IMG/VR virus record: IMGVR_UViG_3300025110_000088
Coordinates: 1-28,593 of that record
Strand: one strand, 5' to 3'
DNA from: a virus
DNA: 28,593 bases
Below the pieces are notes generated by a model that was not told the DNA's origin, made no database searches, and saw only the letters and a program-made list of their open reading frames with translations. Both the position numbers and the translations under genes were made by a program. This document shows, one piece after another, positions 6,571-21,505 of the stretch (position 1 is the first letter of the stretch; every line of letters begins with the position of its first letter).

Positions 6571-9500
6571 ATGGTACAAACTCAAAATAAATCAGCGTTT
6601 CCTGATACCAAAATAGAAGAAGATGTTATAACTAGAGGTCCTAAAGGCGTTCTAGGAATAATAGACGAGTCTGTTGGATTTACTGATGAGTCCAAAGAAT
6701 CTGTTAGATTTGGTGATCAACCCGGACAAGTTATTGTTAATCCACTAAATGTTAACAGAGTATTTAATTATGGTGAGTATTATGATGAGGACTTTTTTGT
6801 TCAAAATAATGATATAGAGGGTATGCTTTTAGGTAATAATCAAGCTATGGAGTTTGATAAAAATATGTCTTACGAAGATAAGATAGATTTATTTAACCAG
6901 TACCAACCTAAAATATTATTTGGAAGAAGTGATACAGAGCTTGACACAGATGGCACAAAGAAAACAACAGGCATATACAATGTTGATGAAAGAATAGATA
7001 CAATTCTACGAAGCAACATAGAAGAAAAGATACAATCTGAAATGGACAAGGGTGTTCGCCCAACTATTCTTCCTAATCCATTTACCGAAGCACCTGCACC
7101 TTTCAGTATGGAATACTATAAAAAAGATCCTAAAACAGGAAGGTTACTGCCTAGCTACCAAGAAAGTCCGGGAAGAAGAGCAAAAGAGTTTCTTAGATTT
7201 TTAGATCAAAGCTTTCCTAACATGGGTGGCAAAACAAAAGCAAGCTTAGTTAACAGAAATATATATGGTAGAGTTGACCTTAATTTTAAAATGCCTGATG
7301 AAAAAGAAACAGATACAGCAGGTTCAGGACTAGTATTAGGGGAGAAGTTAGTAACTCTTGCAACAGATATACCACGTGCTATAGGCGACTTGATTATAAC
7401 AGGCATTGGTGCAGGTGGTGAATTAGCTTATGATGGCTTCAAGAATCTGTATAATTTAGCTAGTAGAGAAGCCACATTTAAAGATCAATATCAAATGATG
7501 TATCAAGGTGATGGTTGGTATGTACCTAATCCTTTTGCTGAAAAAGGTAGAGATTTAATCAGATCCTTTTTAGGTCCTGACTCAGCAGAAGTGTATCAAA
7601 AGAGATTAGCACAAGACAATATACTTGTGACTAAAGAGCAGGCAAACAAAATACTGAACTACACTTCTGATGCTGCAGATGCCGTAACTGTAGTTACACC
7701 TCAACTTTTAGGTGAAGCCACAGCAATTGCTAATATTACTAAAAAGGGTGCAAAAAAGTTTTACGATGATTTTAAATTGTATCAGTCAAATAATAAAAAT
7801 CTAAAAGGTCCTGAATTAGTTCAAAGTTTTCTCGATGAACGAAGATCAAAACTACCTATATACGGTAGATTAAAAGACTTTCTTAATAAAAATAAATTGA
7901 AAGAGGGTGCTGACTTAGCAGAGTCTGCAAAACCTGTTGAACAACGTAGCTTAGTAATAGAAGCAAACGATAGACTAAAAAGTAAACGAGGAGAGTTAGC
8001 TGATGCTATAAAACTAAAACGAGCAGAATATCAATCTCTTGATCCTCAAGCAAAAGCAGTTATGACTCCCCTGCTTAAAAAAGAATATTTAAACACGGAA
8101 GAAGTATTTAAATTAAAAGCAGAAGTAACAGAAGCTGAAATGCTTGTTCGTATGGCAGAACAGACAAGTGCCGTGCCTAAATACATGAGAGATATGTTTA
8201 AAGATACGACATATTTTGCTACAATCGCTGCAGTAACTGGGCAACAATTAAATACAAGTTTTGGTGTAGATCCTCAAGTAGGTTATCTTGTAGGGATGGG
8301 AACTTTGATGGTTGCAAATTTTACGCAGGGAAGCAATTTGTTGGGTATGCGTTCCTATCTAGAAAATAGACATGCGTATAATCAGACTAATATACTTACT
8401 GTGTTAAGAAAGAGTGGTGCTTTTGAAGAAGGCACAACAAGTCAAGATGTCTTGGCCGCACTAAGAAATCCAGTCCTTGATGGTGTTAATCCACTAACAG
8501 GTAAGAAGTTTACTTCAAGTGAAAGAAAATTAGCTCTCGACTTATCAAAAAGAATAAATTCTTTAGCTCCAGAAATAAGAGATCAAGTAGTTGCAAATAT
8601 AGTGTACTATAAAGACATGAGAAAATCTCTAGCAAAAGCAGGAATACCTGATGAGTTACTAGAGACAAGTTTTGCTGATATGTCTGGTCTTGCTCTTTTT
8701 GATGCCCTAGAAGATTCTTTTTATTATTCTGTAAGTCAGTCAAAAGCGTTTGATAAAGGAACACAAGAAACTTTCTTATCATTACAAAACAGTCGTACTA
8801 AACTCATGCAATCTCTTGAAGGTCATTTAAATAATATTTTAGGTTTAAATATAGACAAGAACAATCCTGCAATTGTTGAATTTACAGGTAAGATATCAGA
8901 AGCTTTAAGTGATACAAAATTAAAAGGAGATGAGTTAAGATCAGTCGCAGATGCCTACGTTAAATCTAAAGCTCAACTTTTACAGTCTTATTTACATGGA
9001 CATGATATAAAAGGTGTTCAAGATTCTATTACAGCAGAATATGGCGATGTCATGGAAATGGCTGATTCATTATTAGATGACACCCTAAAACTATCTCTAC
9101 TGGGTGACATGAAATCTGTGCAACAAAGCAGACAAAATTTAAAATTAATTGAAGATAGTATACATAAAGAATTTCACGCAACCATAGCAAATCAAAGATC
9201 TGTAATTAATGATAGATCAGGAAAAATTCCTAGTGTCAATGAAATTGATTTAGCTAAATACAATGACGAAAATGCTTCGTTAGGTAGATTGGCTATCATG
9301 AGTAGAAAGATGGCTAAAGCAAGAGCTAGATTACCATTTCAAGAATTTGATTTGAAATACGGAAATCAATTTGGAACTGACGCATCAGAGTTAGGTCTTA
9401 AAATACTTGATGACGTAACAGCAGGAGACAGAGCAAGTAAAGGTTTAGCTAGTCAACTAATGGCAAGTGGGGATGAAGCTAAAATATTCTCTGTTTTAAA

Positions 9501-11358
9501 TAGTGGTGCTAGAAAAACAATAGATAAAATTATAGATGAAACAGGTAATCTTGAGTTTAGAACACAATATATGGATGAGATACGTGATAGTTTACCTGAT
9601 GCTTTAAAAAATAAACCCATCACAGATTTAGACATAGTTGCATATGCTATAAGAAATGACAATTTACCTGTGGGGATAGCTTTAAGTATGGATGAAACTT
9701 TACGGTTGTATTCTGCTTTAAGTGCAAAATCATACAAAGCACATAGATCTAACAATACAGGAGTTTCACAAACTTATGGAGAATACGCAAAAGCTGCAGA
9801 TAAATTATTTGACAAGGTGGTTGATGCAAGAGGAGTTCCTATAGCAGACGATGCGTTAAAGCAGATAAATGATGAACTCATAAACATGAGATTAACTTAT
9901 CAAGATGAATATACCACACCTTATTTGACAAAAAACACAAATGTATCACGTTGGACAAACCCTGAAAGTGCAACAGTTGTGAGAAGAAAAGGTGAAGTTG
10001 AGGTGATTCGTGACAACGCACAGACTCCGGGTGGTAAAAAATGGTCATCAGGAAATGAGCCTAACACTTGGTTTGATTTACAAAAAGTATCAAACATGAG
10101 TGAAGGTGACATCGTTAACAGACGTAGAGATTTACTACAAATGTATGGTAGATACGATAAAAATGTTGATGGTTATGTTATAGATCCCAACGGTGAAGTA
10201 TTTAAAGGTTTGAGAGAAATATCTGGTATAAAATTTGAAAGAGAAGTTAGAAGATTGCAGTCTGAAATATCTGACCCAATTCAACTTCGAGATGCCATAG
10301 ATAAATTAAGAAAAAATACAGAAACTTTATTTAGAACCTCTGATGATGTTAACGCTTCCATCGCATTTGATTACAATGAGAGCATGGATATAATGACAGA
10401 GTTAGGATCACGAATACAACGTGATGCAAAACTTAAAGCAGCTCATAAAAAAGAATTTATAGATTCTGGATTACAAAGAAATTTAAGAAAAGATGCTGCG
10501 ACAGTGTACACATCCATGAGAAATGCAAATGAAAAAGTAAAAATGCTACAAGACATAGGTGGTGTGCAGAGTGGTGCAGCGTTCTTTGATAAGTTTATTT
10601 CAAAGCCAGATGGATTACAAGAGTTAAAAGCTTTAAAGACAGCAATGACTTCTGTGCAAAACAAAAATAAATTACCGACAATGACTGCAAAAGAGTTTGA
10701 TGATTATGTTAAAGAAATTGTATCCACTCACATATCTAGAACTGTAATCAAACCAACAGGAACTACTACAATAATTCCTACTACAGATAAGAATGGTAAA
10801 ACAGTTTACAAAGCTGTTAAAGATACAAATATGGATACAGATGCTCTCACTAAATTTTTAGATGGCGAGGGATCTGACGTATTAATTGCTAACTTAAAAC
10901 AATCAGGATATATAGATGATGATCATCTAAAGAATCTAAGACGCATAAACACCTTCATGGCTAATAGAAAAAGACAAGTTGGTAGACGAACAGGTGACAT
11001 AAGAATTACTGGAGAGCCAAGAGGATTATCAGTTGAAAGTTATATCAGTAGATTTTATTCTATATCAAGACAAGTAGTTAGTCCGAAGTATGTTGCAACG
11101 GAAGCTCTTATACAAAACATAAGAATGTCCGAGCATAGGATGCTAAAAGAGATGATTACAAATCCTAAAGTTGCAAGTATAATGGCTGACCTTATTGTTG
11201 ATGGTAAAAAGTTTACAGAAGAACAAGAACTTAGACTGAAAGAAGTTCTAACTGTGATGGCTGCCAATGCTATGGCTTCAGGTGCTATAACTGCAGAAGA
11301 TGAGATGAAGTCTGGTCAAAAATTACCAACATACGATCTATCAAAATTCAAACAATAA
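6571..11358 (+). CDS. Giant internal virion/ejection protein candidate (1595 aa)
   Basis: This is the largest gene in the window. It is preceded by AAAGGTTAATTT 5' of the ATG. The 1595-aa product is charged and largely helical. One clear hydrophobic stretch lies at about residues 548-590 (FATIAAVTGQQLN, then VGYLVGMGTLMVANF), and a Gly-rich hydrophobic patch lies near 270-280 (AIGDLIITGIGAGGELAY). No N-terminal transglycosylase-like motif (Glu-Ser plus GLMQ) was found, in contrast to T7 gp16. Size, helical repeats and position at the end of the late block fit a protein ejected into the cell envelope during DNA entry. This is inference from layout, since no family was recognised. Confidence 0.65.
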   Translation: MVQTQNKSAFPDTKIEEDVITRGPKGVLGIIDESVGFTDESKESVRFGDQPGQVIVNPLNVNRVFNYGEYYDEDFFVQNNDIEGMLLGNNQAMEFDKNMSYEDKIDLFNQYQPKILFGRSDTELDTDGTKKTTGIYNVDERIDTILRSNIEEKIQSEMDKGVRPTILPNPFTEAPAPFSMEYYKKDPKTGRLLPSYQESPGRRAKEFLRFLDQSFPNMGGKTKASLVNRNIYGRVDLNFKMPDEKETDTAGSGLVLGEKLVTLATDIPRAIGDLIITGIGAGGELAYDGFKNLYNLASREATFKDQYQMMYQGDGWYVPNPFAEKGRDLIRSFLGPDSAEVYQKRLAQDNILVTKEQANKILNYTSDAADAVTVVTPQLLGEATAIANITKKGAKKFYDDFKLYQSNNKNLKGPELVQSFLDERRSKLPIYGRLKDFLNKNKLKEGADLAESAKPVEQRSLVIEANDRLKSKRGELADAIKLKRAEYQSLDPQAKAVMTPLLKKEYLNTEEVFKLKAEVTEAEMLVRMAEQTSAVPKYMRDMFKDTTYFATIAAVTGQQLNTSFGVDPQVGYLVGMGTLMVANFTQGSNLLGMRSYLENRHAYNQTNILTVLRKSGAFEEGTTSQDVLAALRNPVLDGVNPLTGKKFTSSERKLALDLSKRINSLAPEIRDQVVANIVYYKDMRKSLAKAGIPDELLETSFADMSGLALFDALEDSFYYSVSQSKAFDKGTQETFLSLQNSRTKLMQSLEGHLNNILGLNIDKNNPAIVEFTGKISEALSDTKLKGDELRSVADAYVKSKAQLLQSYLHGHDIKGVQDSITAEYGDVMEMADSLLDDTLKLSLLGDMKSVQQSRQNLKLIEDSIHKEFHATIANQRSVINDRSGKIPSVNEIDLAKYNDENASLGRLAIMSRKMAKARARLPFQEFDLKYGNQFGTDASELGLKILDDVTAGDRASKGLASQLMASGDEAKIFSVLNSGARKTIDKIIDETGNLEFRTQYMDEIRDSLPDALKNKPITDLDIVAYAIRNDNLPVGIALSMDETLRLYSALSAKSYKAHRSNNTGVSQTYGEYAKAADKLFDKVVDARGVPIADDALKQINDELINMRLTYQDEYTTPYLTKNTNVSRWTNPESATVVRRKGEVEVIRDNAQTPGGKKWSSGNEPNTWFDLQKVSNMSEGDIVNRRRDLLQMYGRYDKNVDGYVIDPNGEVFKGLREISGIKFEREVRRLQSEISDPIQLRDAIDKLRKNTETLFRTSDDVNASIAFDYNESMDIMTELGSRIQRDAKLKAAHKKEFIDSGLQRNLRKDAATVYTSMRNANEKVKMLQDIGGVQSGAAFFDKFISKPDGLQELKALKTAMTSVQNKNKLPTMTAKEFDDYVKEIVSTHISRTVIKPTGTTTIIPTTDKNGKTVYKAVKDTNMDTDALTKFLDGEGSDVLIANLKQSGYIDDDHLKNLRRINTFMANRKRQVGRRTGDIRITGEPRGLSVESYISRFYSISRQVVSPKYVATEALIQNIRMSEHRMLKEMITNPKVASIMADLIVDGKKFTEEQELRLKEVLTVMAANAMASGAITAEDEMKSGQKLPTYDLSKFKQ

Positions 11359-17448: not shown

Positions 17449-18978
17449 TTACAGATCTACTTCAGATAAGTCAAGCCAATTTTTACCTATTTTTAATTCA
17501 ATACCTACAGGCATGTCGTATTCTATGCCATACCTACGTTTCGTCTCACTTGGCAGACACAACATTGCTTCCGATAATACATCGATACACTGTTGCTTTT
17601 CACTTGGATGAACATCAAGCACTATTGAATCGTGTACTGTGTTGCAAATAACCGACTGCATTTTGAGTTCTCTCATCTGTCTATCTAGCTCTACCAACGC
17701 AATAGGCAATAGATCAGCCGTAGCGAACCCCTGAACAGGGTAATTACAAATAGCAGTACGATTGGTAGCTGAACCCCACTCTGTCCATCTAGCGTCAGGA
17801 AAACAGTATTCTCTTCCTGACGGTAATTTTATAATTTTTGTAGTCACGGCTTGTTTCTCAAGTTCTTTGTGCCACTCACTTACCTGTTCATACTTCTCTT
17901 TGAATCTTCTGTAGTATGCCTGTTGACTTTGTGTACCACTCACACCACCATACAACGGTTTGAATGTGTGTGCCTTTGCTTCCTGTCTAGAGCAGCCAAT
18001 GATAGATGCAGTGTAGCTGTGAACATCTGTGCCTTTCTTTACATCATCGTATACTTGGTTATCCTTTGCAAGAAAGCCTGCCACTCTGAACTCTAACTGT
18101 GAGTAGTCACCCTCAAGTATAAACCCATCGTCAAATCTACTTTCGACAACCTTACGTATAGCAAACGTAGAACCACGTGGCATGTTTTGAAAATTAGGAT
18201 TACGACTAGATAGCCTGCCTGTTGCTGTTACACATTGCATAAACTCAGGATGAATGAAGTTGTAGTCATCAACATTGTTTTTCATTCCCTCTACAAAGGT
18301 AGACAGATAAGTACGAAGAGCATTGTAGCGAACATAGGCTTCACAAAACTCACGTGCATCACCACTTAGTTCAGATAGCCTATCTTCTAGGGTCACCTTA
18401 TCTGTCTTGAAACCTGCTGATGCTGTGTCTCTTGGTGTACGAGGTATGATTTTAAAACCTGCCACCTCGCCTGTAGATGTATAGACTACACCTTTACCCT
18501 CACAGATTTTACATATTCGTTTAGCTTTACCAACACTGCCATCTTTCTTGAGAGGTGTTATCCTACCTGATCCACGACAAGTTTCACATTGACGACCAAT
18601 TGTTTTGTAAACTATGTCAGTCATACGTCTTACATATTGTACAAAGTCTTTGTTCTTCATACGTGTACGCATCTTAGGTTTGATTGTATTGCCACGCATC
18701 TCGTGTCCAAGATTGAATGTGAGTGACCAAAGAGATTTATCTTTTACCTTTCGTGAGTAAAGCAACACACTTTTATCATCAGGACTTGCAAGATTGATAG
18801 GAGTATCTCCCATTGCGTTCTTGGCTAGTCTGTTCAGCTTAGTTTCCAACATGGTCATCTCATCCATGTATTGTTTTTCAATCTGTTCTAAGGTATCTGT
18901 ATTTATCTTTAGTCCGTTGTGTTCTATCCTAGATAGCGTGTTCGTCATCTCGAACGACAGTTTTAGTGTTTGTTTCAT
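17449..18978 (-). CDS. Family-A DNA polymerase (polymerase domain only) with DnaJ-type zinc finger
   Basis: This 509-aa protein is the replicative polymerase without its proofreading domain, which is the preceding gene. Motif A is DYSQLEFRVA (D291). Motif B is RQEAKAHTFKPLYGG (K335, with F339 at the position of E. coli F762). Motif C is CNTVHDSIVLDV (D450, with HDS in place of the usual HDE). Between the start of the polymerase domain and motif A there are two CxxCxGxG motifs (C131/C134 and C156/C159), a partial DnaJ central-domain zinc finger, as recalled for phage HMO-2011. It sits in the thumb region, near where T7 polymerase carries its thioredoxin-binding insertion. GAGGAA six bases before the ATG supports independent initiation. 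Confidence 0.93.
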   Translation of the reverse strand: MKQTLKLSFEMTNTLSRIEHNGLKINTDTLEQIEKQYMDEMTMLETKLNRLAKNAMGDTPINLASPDDKSVLLYSRKVKDKSLWSLTFNLGHEMRGNTIKPKMRTRMKNKDFVQYVRRMTDIVYKTIGRQCETCRGSGRITPLKKDGSVGKAKRICKICEGKGVVYTSTGEVAGFKIIPRTPRDTASAGFKTDKVTLEDRLSELSGDAREFCEAYVRYNALRTYLSTFVEGMKNNVDDYNFIHPEFMQCVTATGRLSSRNPNFQNMPRGSTFAIRKVVESRFDDGFILEGDYSQLEFRVAGFLAKDNQVYDDVKKGTDVHSYTASIIGCSRQEAKAHTFKPLYGGVSGTQSQQAYYRRFKEKYEQVSEWHKELEKQAVTTKIIKLPSGREYCFPDARWTEWGSATNRTAICNYPVQGFATADLLPIALVELDRQMRELKMQSVICNTVHDSIVLDVHPSEKQQCIDVLSEAMLCLPSETKRRYGIEYDMPVGIELKIGKNWLDLSEVDL

Positions 18979-19525
18979 ATAATTCCTCGAATGTTAAGCC
19001 AAAGGCTTCTAGTTGTTTTACTGCAACCTGTTCAGTTGCGACTACATCGGCAATGCCGTATTCTTCTACTATCTCTGCAGGTATGTCATAGAATGTCTTA
19101 CCATCTTTGAGATACGGTTTAACCAAATCTACTTCTTTTTGAGTAACCTCATATCGTTTTGCAAGAGACTCAAGTGACAAAGACCAACGCCTACCTTTTG
19201 ATCTTAGGTATTCTGCTACCATCGTATCGTACAGAACTCCATCGTAAGTAAAGCCACATGATCGCAACCATGTTATGTCAAACTTGATGTTTTGTCCAAT
19301 CAGAACATCTGCCTTGTCCAAATCTTTTTGTATCAAGTTTACAATATCTGACTCATAATTGTACTCACTATCTTTGTGATAGAAAAACTTATAGTTAACG
19401 TGATCGTTTAACAACCACTTCCAACCTATTGATACTAATCGATTATTGAAGTAGGGCAATGCAGTAGTGCCACCCCCCTCTTTGTCTCGATGTGTAGTTT
19501 CTACATCTAAAGTTAACACGTTCAT
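18929..19525 (-). CDS. DnaQ-like 3'-5' exonuclease (proofreading half of split PolA)
   Basis: This 198-aa protein carries the exonuclease domain normally fused to family-A polymerases. Exo I is LTLDVETTH (D7, E9), Exo II is LIGQNIKFDITWL (N79, D83) and Exo III is EEYGIADVVATE (Y156, D160). The start at 19525 is chosen because TGATG overlaps the helicase stop and the exonuclease core begins immediately; an in-frame ATG at 19579 would only add a segment overlapping the helicase. The end overlaps the polymerase gene by 50 bases in another frame. The two halves probably assemble as a proofreading polymerase. Confidence 0.9.
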   Translation of the reverse strand: MNVLTLDVETTHRDKEGGGTTALPYFNNRLVSIGWKWLLNDHVNYKFFYHKDSEYNYESDIVNLIQKDLDKADVLIGQNIKFDITWLRSCGFTYDGVLYDTMVAEYLRSKGRRWSLSLESLAKRYEVTQKEVDLVKPYLKDGKTFYDIPAEIVEEYGIADVVATEQVAVKQLEAFGLTFEELYETNTKTVVRDDEHAI

Positions 19526-20751
19526 CAATAATATATCCCCCTTGAAATATCTATTTGGGCATTGATCATACCATGCCACCCATTGATCTTGTTCTTAGAT
19601 ATACAGATGTGTCTTACTATATTGTCTATCTCACTCGATCCTGTCTTGCCTATACCTATAATAATGTCAGCTTCACCTGCCTTACCTGTCTTGGAATTGT
19701 CAAGCATAGCATAATCTATAAACTGTCTGTCGTGTGCATCGTAACTTGCTTGACTTACTGCCCACACAAGACACACGTTTCTTTTGGCTATCTCTCTTGC
19801 AGACACGTAAGTTTCCTTCAAACGTTCATCTCCACGATTGTACTCACCACGTATTCTGAATTTGTCTAGCTGATCACAGAACATGACATCAGGTTTGTTC
19901 AGCTTGGCATACTCATCTACCTCTTCTACAGATGTACCCACCGAATCCATGATAGTCAGGTAAGGTTCTATCTCTGTCTTGTATCTATCTAGGAGACTAA
20001 ACCTCTGTGCTACCATCTCTTCCTTTGTCAGTTCAAAGTATGATTGAATGATACGTAATTTAATTCGTTTAGCAGGTTCTTCGTTTGCCCAATACACAAC
20101 CTGAAACCCCTGCCGTATGTACGATGATGCAAGAAAGCAACAGAACGTTGTCTTACCTACTTCAGGTCTTGCAAACAAGATACCTAAGTTGCCACGATCT
20201 AAACCTTTGATGTTCTCATTTATTAAGTTGAATGTGAATGGGAAATCATTGTCACCTGCTTCTTCAGATAACAGTTCGTTCAAATCTTTGTCAACAATGG
20301 TGTAGGTTGTTTTGTCACCTATCCTACCATCATCTACACTTTCGATAAGTTTCTTTAACTCACCGAACTCATCACTGTCACCAGTGAATATGTCTAATGC
20401 TTTCTCTCCTATCTGTCTAGCTTTGTCTCGCAGCCACAGGTTGTTTACAATGTCACTATGTAACTCATCGCTTTCATTTGGTGCAACGAGTTGTACAATC
20501 ATATCCTGTACACGATTCCTAGCTGAATCAGGCATGGCAGGATTACGATCATTAAATATTGTAGACAGTTCAGGAACAGACAGACTACGATCATACTTGG
20601 TATGTGAATATACTATCGTATCAAATATATCTTTTAGTTCATTGTCGAACATAGTTCGATCAATTTTATTTTTTACTTTATTGAAGAAATCAATATTGAG
20701 ACAAAAACCTAGTACTTGTCTGTCAATCGATATAACGCCTGATGAACTCAT
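19525..20751 (-). CDS. Replicative DnaB-like helicase
   Basis: This 408-aa RecA-fold hexameric helicase unwinds DNA at the fork. Walker A is FARPEVGKTTF (K200), a variant with Ala for the first Gly. The catalytic Glu lies in YWANEEPAKR (E225), Walker B is DVMFCDQLD (D293), and a sensor-like VWAVSQAS and C-terminal KNKINGWHG follow. The N-terminal 150 residues form a helical domain resembling the DnaB N-terminal region. The primase is a separate gene upstream, unlike fused T7 gp4. A GGGGAAAG site precedes the ATG, which overlaps the primase by 29 bases. Confidence 0.92.
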   Translation of the reverse strand: MSSSGVISIDRQVLGFCLNIDFFNKVKNKIDRTMFDNELKDIFDTIVYSHTKYDRSLSVPELSTIFNDRNPAMPDSARNRVQDMIVQLVAPNESDELHSDIVNNLWLRDKARQIGEKALDIFTGDSDEFGELKKLIESVDDGRIGDKTTYTIVDKDLNELLSEEAGDNDFPFTFNLINENIKGLDRGNLGILFARPEVGKTTFCCFLASSYIRQGFQVVYWANEEPAKRIKLRIIQSYFELTKEEMVAQRFSLLDRYKTEIEPYLTIMDSVGTSVEEVDEYAKLNKPDVMFCDQLDKFRIRGEYNRGDERLKETYVSAREIAKRNVCLVWAVSQASYDAHDRQFIDYAMLDNSKTGKAGEADIIIGIGKTGSSEIDNIVRHICISKNKINGWHGMINAQIDISRGIYY

Positions 20752-21505
20752 TTCTTTCCCCTTTTTCCATATCTTTCAAATCCTTGTTCAAAACAATTAA
20801 CTTAGTTGGAACGTAGTTCCGTAACTTTCTTATCATCATGTATGCCTTAGACGTTGCATCTTTGTCAAGTGCTACATAAACTTTCTTAAATCTTTTTATC
20901 ACATCCATATGTTCATTAAGTAATGTCGTTCCCATCAAGGCTAGTCCTGTTACCAAATTGGATACTGCACAGGCTGAAGGGCAATCTTCCACAACAAAAC
21001 AGTTGTCACTATTACCACACACATAAGGATGTTTGCTATTGCCATATCTTCTCCACTTAGGTTTGTATCCATTCAAACTACGACCTGTTCCGTCAATCAC
21101 TTTATTGTCACTCTTGACAAGATAGACTACTCTTTCTTGTTGAAAGTCATATCTTATGTCAGCCAATCCATTTAGGTAAGCATCAAGTGATCCTACTTTC
21201 TTTACATACGCTTCTGCTTCTTTACTACGTGAAAGCGACACAAACGTGTCAGGTATAACAAAATCATTTGTCACTTCAGATTTTGTCACTCGTTCTTTAA
21301 ATGCAACCTTTGAGTTCTCCTTAGTCAGTTGCACTCCTGTAGATCCCTTAGTGTGACAGTCAGCATGAAAGCAATACCATAGTCTTTCAAATCCTGTATC
21401 AGTTACACTAAAGGTGTTACTCCTATGACAAACAGGGCAATCACCCCTATAACGCCCATAAGAAACAACGTGTAAATTTCCCACATAATTCTTTACCCAT
21501 TCCAT
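20723..21505 (-). CDS. DNA primase (zinc-binding + TOPRIM)
   Basis: This 260-aa primase is the first gene of the leftward replication block. The N-terminal zinc site is DCPVCHRSN plus WYCFHADCH (C23, C26, C50, with C45/H47 nearby). The TOPRIM core is FVVEDCPSACAVSN (E173), then VYVALDKDATS (D214, D216) and KDLKDM (D242, D245). Length and layout match the stand-alone primase half of T7 gp4-like systems, here with the helicase in its own gene. The ATG lies almost at the predicted transcription start, and I see no ribosome binding site in front of it. Confidence 0.92.
   Translation of the reverse strand: MEWVKNYVGNLHVVSYGRYRGDCPVCHRSNTFSVTDTGFERLWYCFHADCHTKGSTGVQLTKENSKVAFKERVTKSEVTNDFVIPDTFVSLSRSKEAEAYVKKVGSLDAYLNGLADIRYDFQQERVVYLVKSDNKVIDGTGRSLNGYKPKWRRYGNSKHPYVCGNSDNCFVVEDCPSACAVSNLVTGLALMGTTLLNEHMDVIKRFKKVYVALDKDATSKAYMMIRKLRNYVPTKLIVLNKDLKDMEKGERNEFIRRYID

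Follow-up and report, generated by a model that had tools for sequence, protein, structure and literature searches.

Separate, overlapping exonuclease and polymerase genes in a clade of HMO-2011-type phages: a probable two-subunit proofreading DNA polymerase

A clade of HMO-2011-type phages carries its 3'-5' exonuclease and its family-A DNA polymerase as separate genes; the split form is confined to this single clade, both parts are under selection and their active sites are intact. We consider it very likely that the two products form a two-subunit proofreading DNA polymerase, derived from the HMO-2011-type chain by one fission, probably made by coupled translation and re-assembled from its parts.

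Exonuclease and polymerase genes of the locus

The stretch of DNA analysed here (the window) is a 28,593-base IMG/VR virus record from an HMO-2011-type phage. The feature under study, two intact frames, occupies positions 17449-19525 on the minus strand. The exo gene (18929-19525, minus strand, ATG at 19525) encodes a stand-alone 3'-5' exonuclease subunit of 198 aa, and the pol gene (17449-18978, minus strand) a family-A DNA polymerase subunit of 509 aa devoid of exonuclease domain; both assignments draw on Pfam, PHROG and structure models. The pol frame is +1 relative to exo, and from the ORF coordinates the exo tail and the pol N-terminus overlap out of frame over 50 nt (18929-18978, minus strand), just as the original prediction had it, while the placement given there, 18929-19525, takes in the exo frame and omits pol. 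The GAGGAA ribosome-binding site which had been proposed for the pol ATG is indeed present at 18983-18988 (minus strand). It lies within the exo frame, 4 nt before the pol ATG, with its GAGG core 6 nt before it.

Upstream in the same operon are a DnaB-like helicase (19525-20751, minus strand; PF03796, phrog_19) and a DNA primase (20723-21505, minus strand; phrog_47, E 2e-19), which gives the order primase-helicase-exo-pol on the minus strand. The overlap is 1 nt between helicase stop and exo start and 29 nt between the primase and helicase genes; tight overlaps of neighbours are thus the norm in this operon. Elsewhere in the window, a plus-strand module contains a 1595-aa ORF (6571-11358), for which no match in phage records at E 1e-5 and no PHROG family was found.

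With Pfam, the exo frame matches DNA_pol_A_exo1 (PF01612, E 1.2e-8) and the pol frame DNA_pol_A (PF00476, E 6.9e-53) together with DnaJ_CXXCXGXG (E 0.00039, scoring under the curated cut-off of that family). On the fused-polymerase profile phrog_17, exo corresponds to positions 670-828 and pol to positions 841-1236. Exo also matches phrog_403, annotated 'DNA polymerase exonuclease subunit' (E 2.5e-13), with phrog_17 scoring higher. The AlphaFold2 model of exo (pLDDT 90.6, residues 191-198 at the C-terminal end being poorly predicted) has the Klenow exonuclease domain as its best structural match (Z 17.2), and that of pol (pLDDT 89.4) aligns over residues 1-505 with Klenow 520-928 (Z 32). In these structural alignments residue 1 of exo corresponds to Klenow 349, and residue 1 of pol to Klenow 520, Taq 424 and T7 210. 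Since the modelled pol begins at Klenow 520 and the modelled exo at Klenow 349, the cut is, according to the models, at the boundary between exonuclease and polymerase domains; the earlier proposal of a split at the natural domain joint thus agrees with the Klenow 520 / T7 210 boundary.

The catalytic residues of the exonuclease, in motif I (D7, E9; 19499-19507), motif II (D83; 19277-19279) and motif III (Y156 and D160; 19046-19060), all on the minus strand, are invariant in 43 aligned exonucleases, split and fused. Motifs A, B and C of the polymerase, also on the minus strand, are conserved in 47 aligned pol sequences: D291, L295 and E296 are invariant in motif A (DYSQLEFR; 18085-18108), R331, K335 and F339 are invariant and Y343 nearly so in motif B (17950-17988), and V448, H449, D450 and S451 are invariant in motif C (VHDS; 17626-17637). 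Pol residues 131-163 (18490-18588, minus strand) carry the DnaJ-like CXXCXGXG zinc repeats that are the hallmark of HMO-2011-type polymerases (PMC9038755), including CETCRGSG and CKICEGKG. The zinc-binding cysteines 131, 134, 156 and 159 are invariant in the same 47 sequences. These repeats belong to the pol chain, about 130 residues past the Klenow-520 boundary, and may fall in the thumb, where T7 has its thioredoxin-binding loop.

The split in relatives and its phylogeny

Among its closest relatives, all at 36-49% identity, the window pol comes nearest to those of Pelagibacter phage HTVC033P (48.8%) and HMO-2011 (41.9%), followed by Roseobacter CRP phages; the same phages give the best matches of exo, and the ribonucleotide reductases of the window and of HMO-2011 share 67.5% identity. 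The polymerases of HMO-2011, HTVC033P and the CRP phages share with the window the CXXCXGXG repeats and the order primase-helicase-exo/pol. However, the cultured phages HTVC033P, HMO-2011 and CRP-3 encode exonuclease and polymerase as a single CDS of 678-705 aa, where the window has one chain of 198 aa and another of 509 aa, and an exonuclease-DnaJ-polymerase arrangement has been described for all reported HMO-2011-group phages (PMC9038755).

A first comparison took in the locus of the window together with the relatives that its exo and pol retrieved, 152 loci with both parts in all. The same +1 frame relation was present in 152 of 152, and 79 distinct joints were read from them, with the exo stop past the pol start. 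Once later scans with fused queries had been added, there were 208 fused loci (187 distinct joints) and 183 loci initially classed as split, with frame +1. Once false cases were removed and one locus (L356) was added, the final split set from IMG/VR comprised 182 loci and 131 distinct joints, all on metagenome contigs picked by similarity, so that these frequencies are not estimates of abundance. A pol start codon is present at each of the 131 distinct split joints (ATG 123, TTG 7, GTG 1), and exo and pol overlap by 14-68 nt in 128 of them. A host for the split clade was not found, the closest loci on bacterial genome contigs (40-48% identity) being fused or cut by the contig end.

In a tree built on clusters at 90% identity, all 27 clusters of one clade are split, with no fused member (SH-aLRT 100), and a smaller tree under a mixture model recovers the same clade (support 99/100). 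In both trees it branches among the HTVC033P, CRP-3 and HMO-2011 groups, and its deepest members, L375 and L360, already carry the overlap. The comparison of homologous genomes at the joint, which had been suggested as a check, thus opposes a clade split throughout to cultured relatives that are fused. The split looks like one old event in the HMO-2011-type group, as far as the sequences tell. Since family-A polymerases are generally fused and fused groups surround the clade, we infer that the fused form is ancestral and that the change went from fused to split, the outgroups sitting on long branches in both trees.

Could a sequencing or assembly indel have interrupted a gene that is truly continuous? 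Isolated single-contig cases of this kind do exist in this gene. Two contigs, L230 and L317, were at first counted as split and show an internal frame break, probably an indel; in a third one, L100, the break is inside the exonuclease and is also probably a sequencing or assembly indel. But L317 and L230 are isolated and have fused sisters, whereas the arrangement of the window recurs in 131 distinct joints, always with a start codon, in a clade without fused member, and the probability left to an indel is negligible.

Within the subgroup of the window, pairwise dN/dS values for exo lie at about 0.05-0.2 and those for pol at about 0.02-0.1, some pairs being saturated. Judged by these ratios, strong purifying selection acts on exo and pol alike.

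Translation and assembly of the two chains

As well as two subunits, the original prediction had envisaged a programmed frameshift that would also make a fusion. In fact the frames overlap and pol is +1 to exo, as +1 ribosomal frameshifting requires to yield a fused exo-pol chain. Yet no conserved slippery site with a fixed stop in the overlap was found across the split clusters. The distance from pol start to exo stop varies over the 14-68 nt given above, and the commonest in-phase 7-mers, GCCTTTG (15 of 25 clusters) and TTTGAGG (14 of 25), are not recognised slippery sites. The commonest exo stop is a TGA formed by conserved Leu-Glu codons of pol read in the exo frame, and the position of the stop looks like a by-product of these codons. 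Moreover, in two relatives both genes are intact and other coding DNA lies between them: 0.4 kb in L356 and, in L392 (1091-2349), about 1.26 kb in which several small ORFs are found. As this DNA separates exo from pol, fusion by frameshifting is impossible there. The variable stops, the lack of a shared recognised slippery motif and the two inserts speak, at the level of sequence, for separate initiation of the two chains and against a frameshifted fusion, which we regard as very unlikely.

The insert of L356 (2617-3009) is an endonuclease VII/HNH-like ORF (phrog_1035, E 2.5e-22) situated exactly between exo and pol, as a homing endonuclease would be. Interruption by a homing endonuclease or an intron was also considered for the window and rejected: its genes overlap, and an intervening element of that kind was seen in this relative only.

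Every split cluster has a start codon near the homologous pol position, preceded in nearly all by a purine-rich site. Anti-SD pairing energy averages -5.9 kcal/mol at the joints that are split and -2.1 at those that are fused, a contrast that opposes one clade to the rest. Tested against synonymous recodings of the exo codons, the pol ribosome-binding site proved no stronger than expected (median p 0.41); because this test is not significant, we claim no selection on the site.

We propose that the ancestor was a single-chain exonuclease-DnaJ-polymerase of HMO-2011 type and that this chain was cut once, at the domain boundary, through a frame change which would have left pol at +1 to exo. The pol half would then have a start codon and a ribosome-binding site of its own, both within the last part of the exo gene, and exo and pol would be translated in turn from the primase-helicase-exo-pol operon. 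Their translation would be coupled, probably through the overlap, and the two chains would most likely re-associate into a Klenow-like proofreading enzyme.

That exo and pol assemble into one enzyme is suggested by their shared operon, by the selection on both and by precedents. Natural fission of phage replication enzymes has been described for the family-B polymerase gene 43 of T4-like Aeromonas phages and for nrdA of Aeh1 (PMC2988022), and in both the halves assemble and are active; those of the split polymerase of Aeromonas phage 25 co-purify (PMC2988022). These enzymes belong to families other than that of the window. In addition, a homing endonuclease or intercistronic sequence separates their parts, while the window has neither.

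Alternatively, exo could be a free-standing nuclease uncoupled from pol, employed for instance in recombination or nucleotide recycling, and pol would copy DNA without proofreading. The chains are separate, and the exo fold also resembles stand-alone nucleases such as NrnC (Z about 15). The top structural matches, however, are exonuclease domains of polymerases, with phiVC8 DpoZ (Z 16.5) after Klenow, the best PHROG of exo is the fused-polymerase family, and exo directly overlaps pol in nearly all joints (128/131). We therefore judge an uncoupled nuclease unlikely. The two-subunit polymerase, already put forward in the original prediction, is supported by the clade-wide split, the separate starts, the catalytic residues, the purifying selection and the joint at the domain boundary.

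Other split polymerases

A separate exonuclease subunit is already known. In the LUZ24 group and in phiEco32, the 3'-5' exonuclease has its own gene, distinct from that of the family-A polymerase (PMC3517423), so that the premise from which the split was first noticed, exonuclease and polymerase in one chain in family-A phage polymerases, is true in general but has these published exceptions. The exonuclease subunits in the LUZ24 and phiEco32 records, 169 and 185 aa long, are encoded beside primase/helicase genes, with the pol gene elsewhere. As in the window, where the neighbour is the helicase, the exonuclease stands alone next to replication genes and the family-A polymerase lacks that domain. 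The cut is also alike on phrog_17: exo ends at 826 in phiEco32 and pol starts at 836 in both phiEco32 and LUZ24, compared with 828 and 841 in the window. The two genes are nevertheless apart in these phages, whereas those of the window overlap: in LUZ24 other genes fill the roughly 2.3 kb between them, and in phiEco32 the distance is about 8 kb. Since the LUZ24 and phiEco32 polymerases group together outside all HMO-2011-type sequences (mixture-model tree, on long branches), the split of the window is probably independent of theirs.

What is new is that the two genes overlap, and that a clade of HMO-2011-type phages is built in this way; in the literature searched, we found no description of an overlapping split in this group. 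HMO-2011-type phages are reported to be a dominant and widespread group of marine phages (PMC9038755), of which a whole clade would replicate with a naturally split polymerase. To enter the phylogeny of a published survey, a polymerase had to be longer than 540 aa and reach a coverage of at least 80% (PMC9038755). With such filters a pol chain of 509 aa would be lost, and HMO-2011-type diversity is therefore probably undercounted. Related fused and split forms, together with a cut exactly at the domain boundary, can also serve to test the value of a covalent link between proofreading and synthesis.

In the Zobellviridae ICP2 and MEP401 (PMC10580990), a related marine-phage polymerase is likewise in two reading frames. 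The cut there is inside the polymerase domain, the exonuclease remaining together with the N-terminal part of the polymerase, unlike in the window; in MEP401 a small ORF lies between the polymerase parts. In two CRP-3-like contigs, L339 (2407-4590) and L352, the break falls within the exonuclease domain, after motif II and before motif III, and stop and start codons overlap there in an ATGA-type arrangement. In L339, motif III and the polymerase are carried by a second chain of 591 aa, while L352 has a later frame break as well and may be damaged.

More speculatively, proofreading could be a dissociable subunit whose dose relative to pol is set by translational coupling, making fidelity tunable or exo exchangeable, and in HMO-2011-type phages and their relatives among the Zobellviridae the polymerase gene could have been cut repeatedly at different places: between exo and pol, within exo in L339 and probably also in L352, and within pol in ICP2 and MEP401. 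We put this wider idea forward as a rather doubtful one.

Finally, in Alcaligenes phage vB_Af_QDWS535 (L468, 1955-3870) the family-A polymerase is likewise divided between two neighbouring genes; these overlap by 1 base, and the cut falls inside the polymerase domain.
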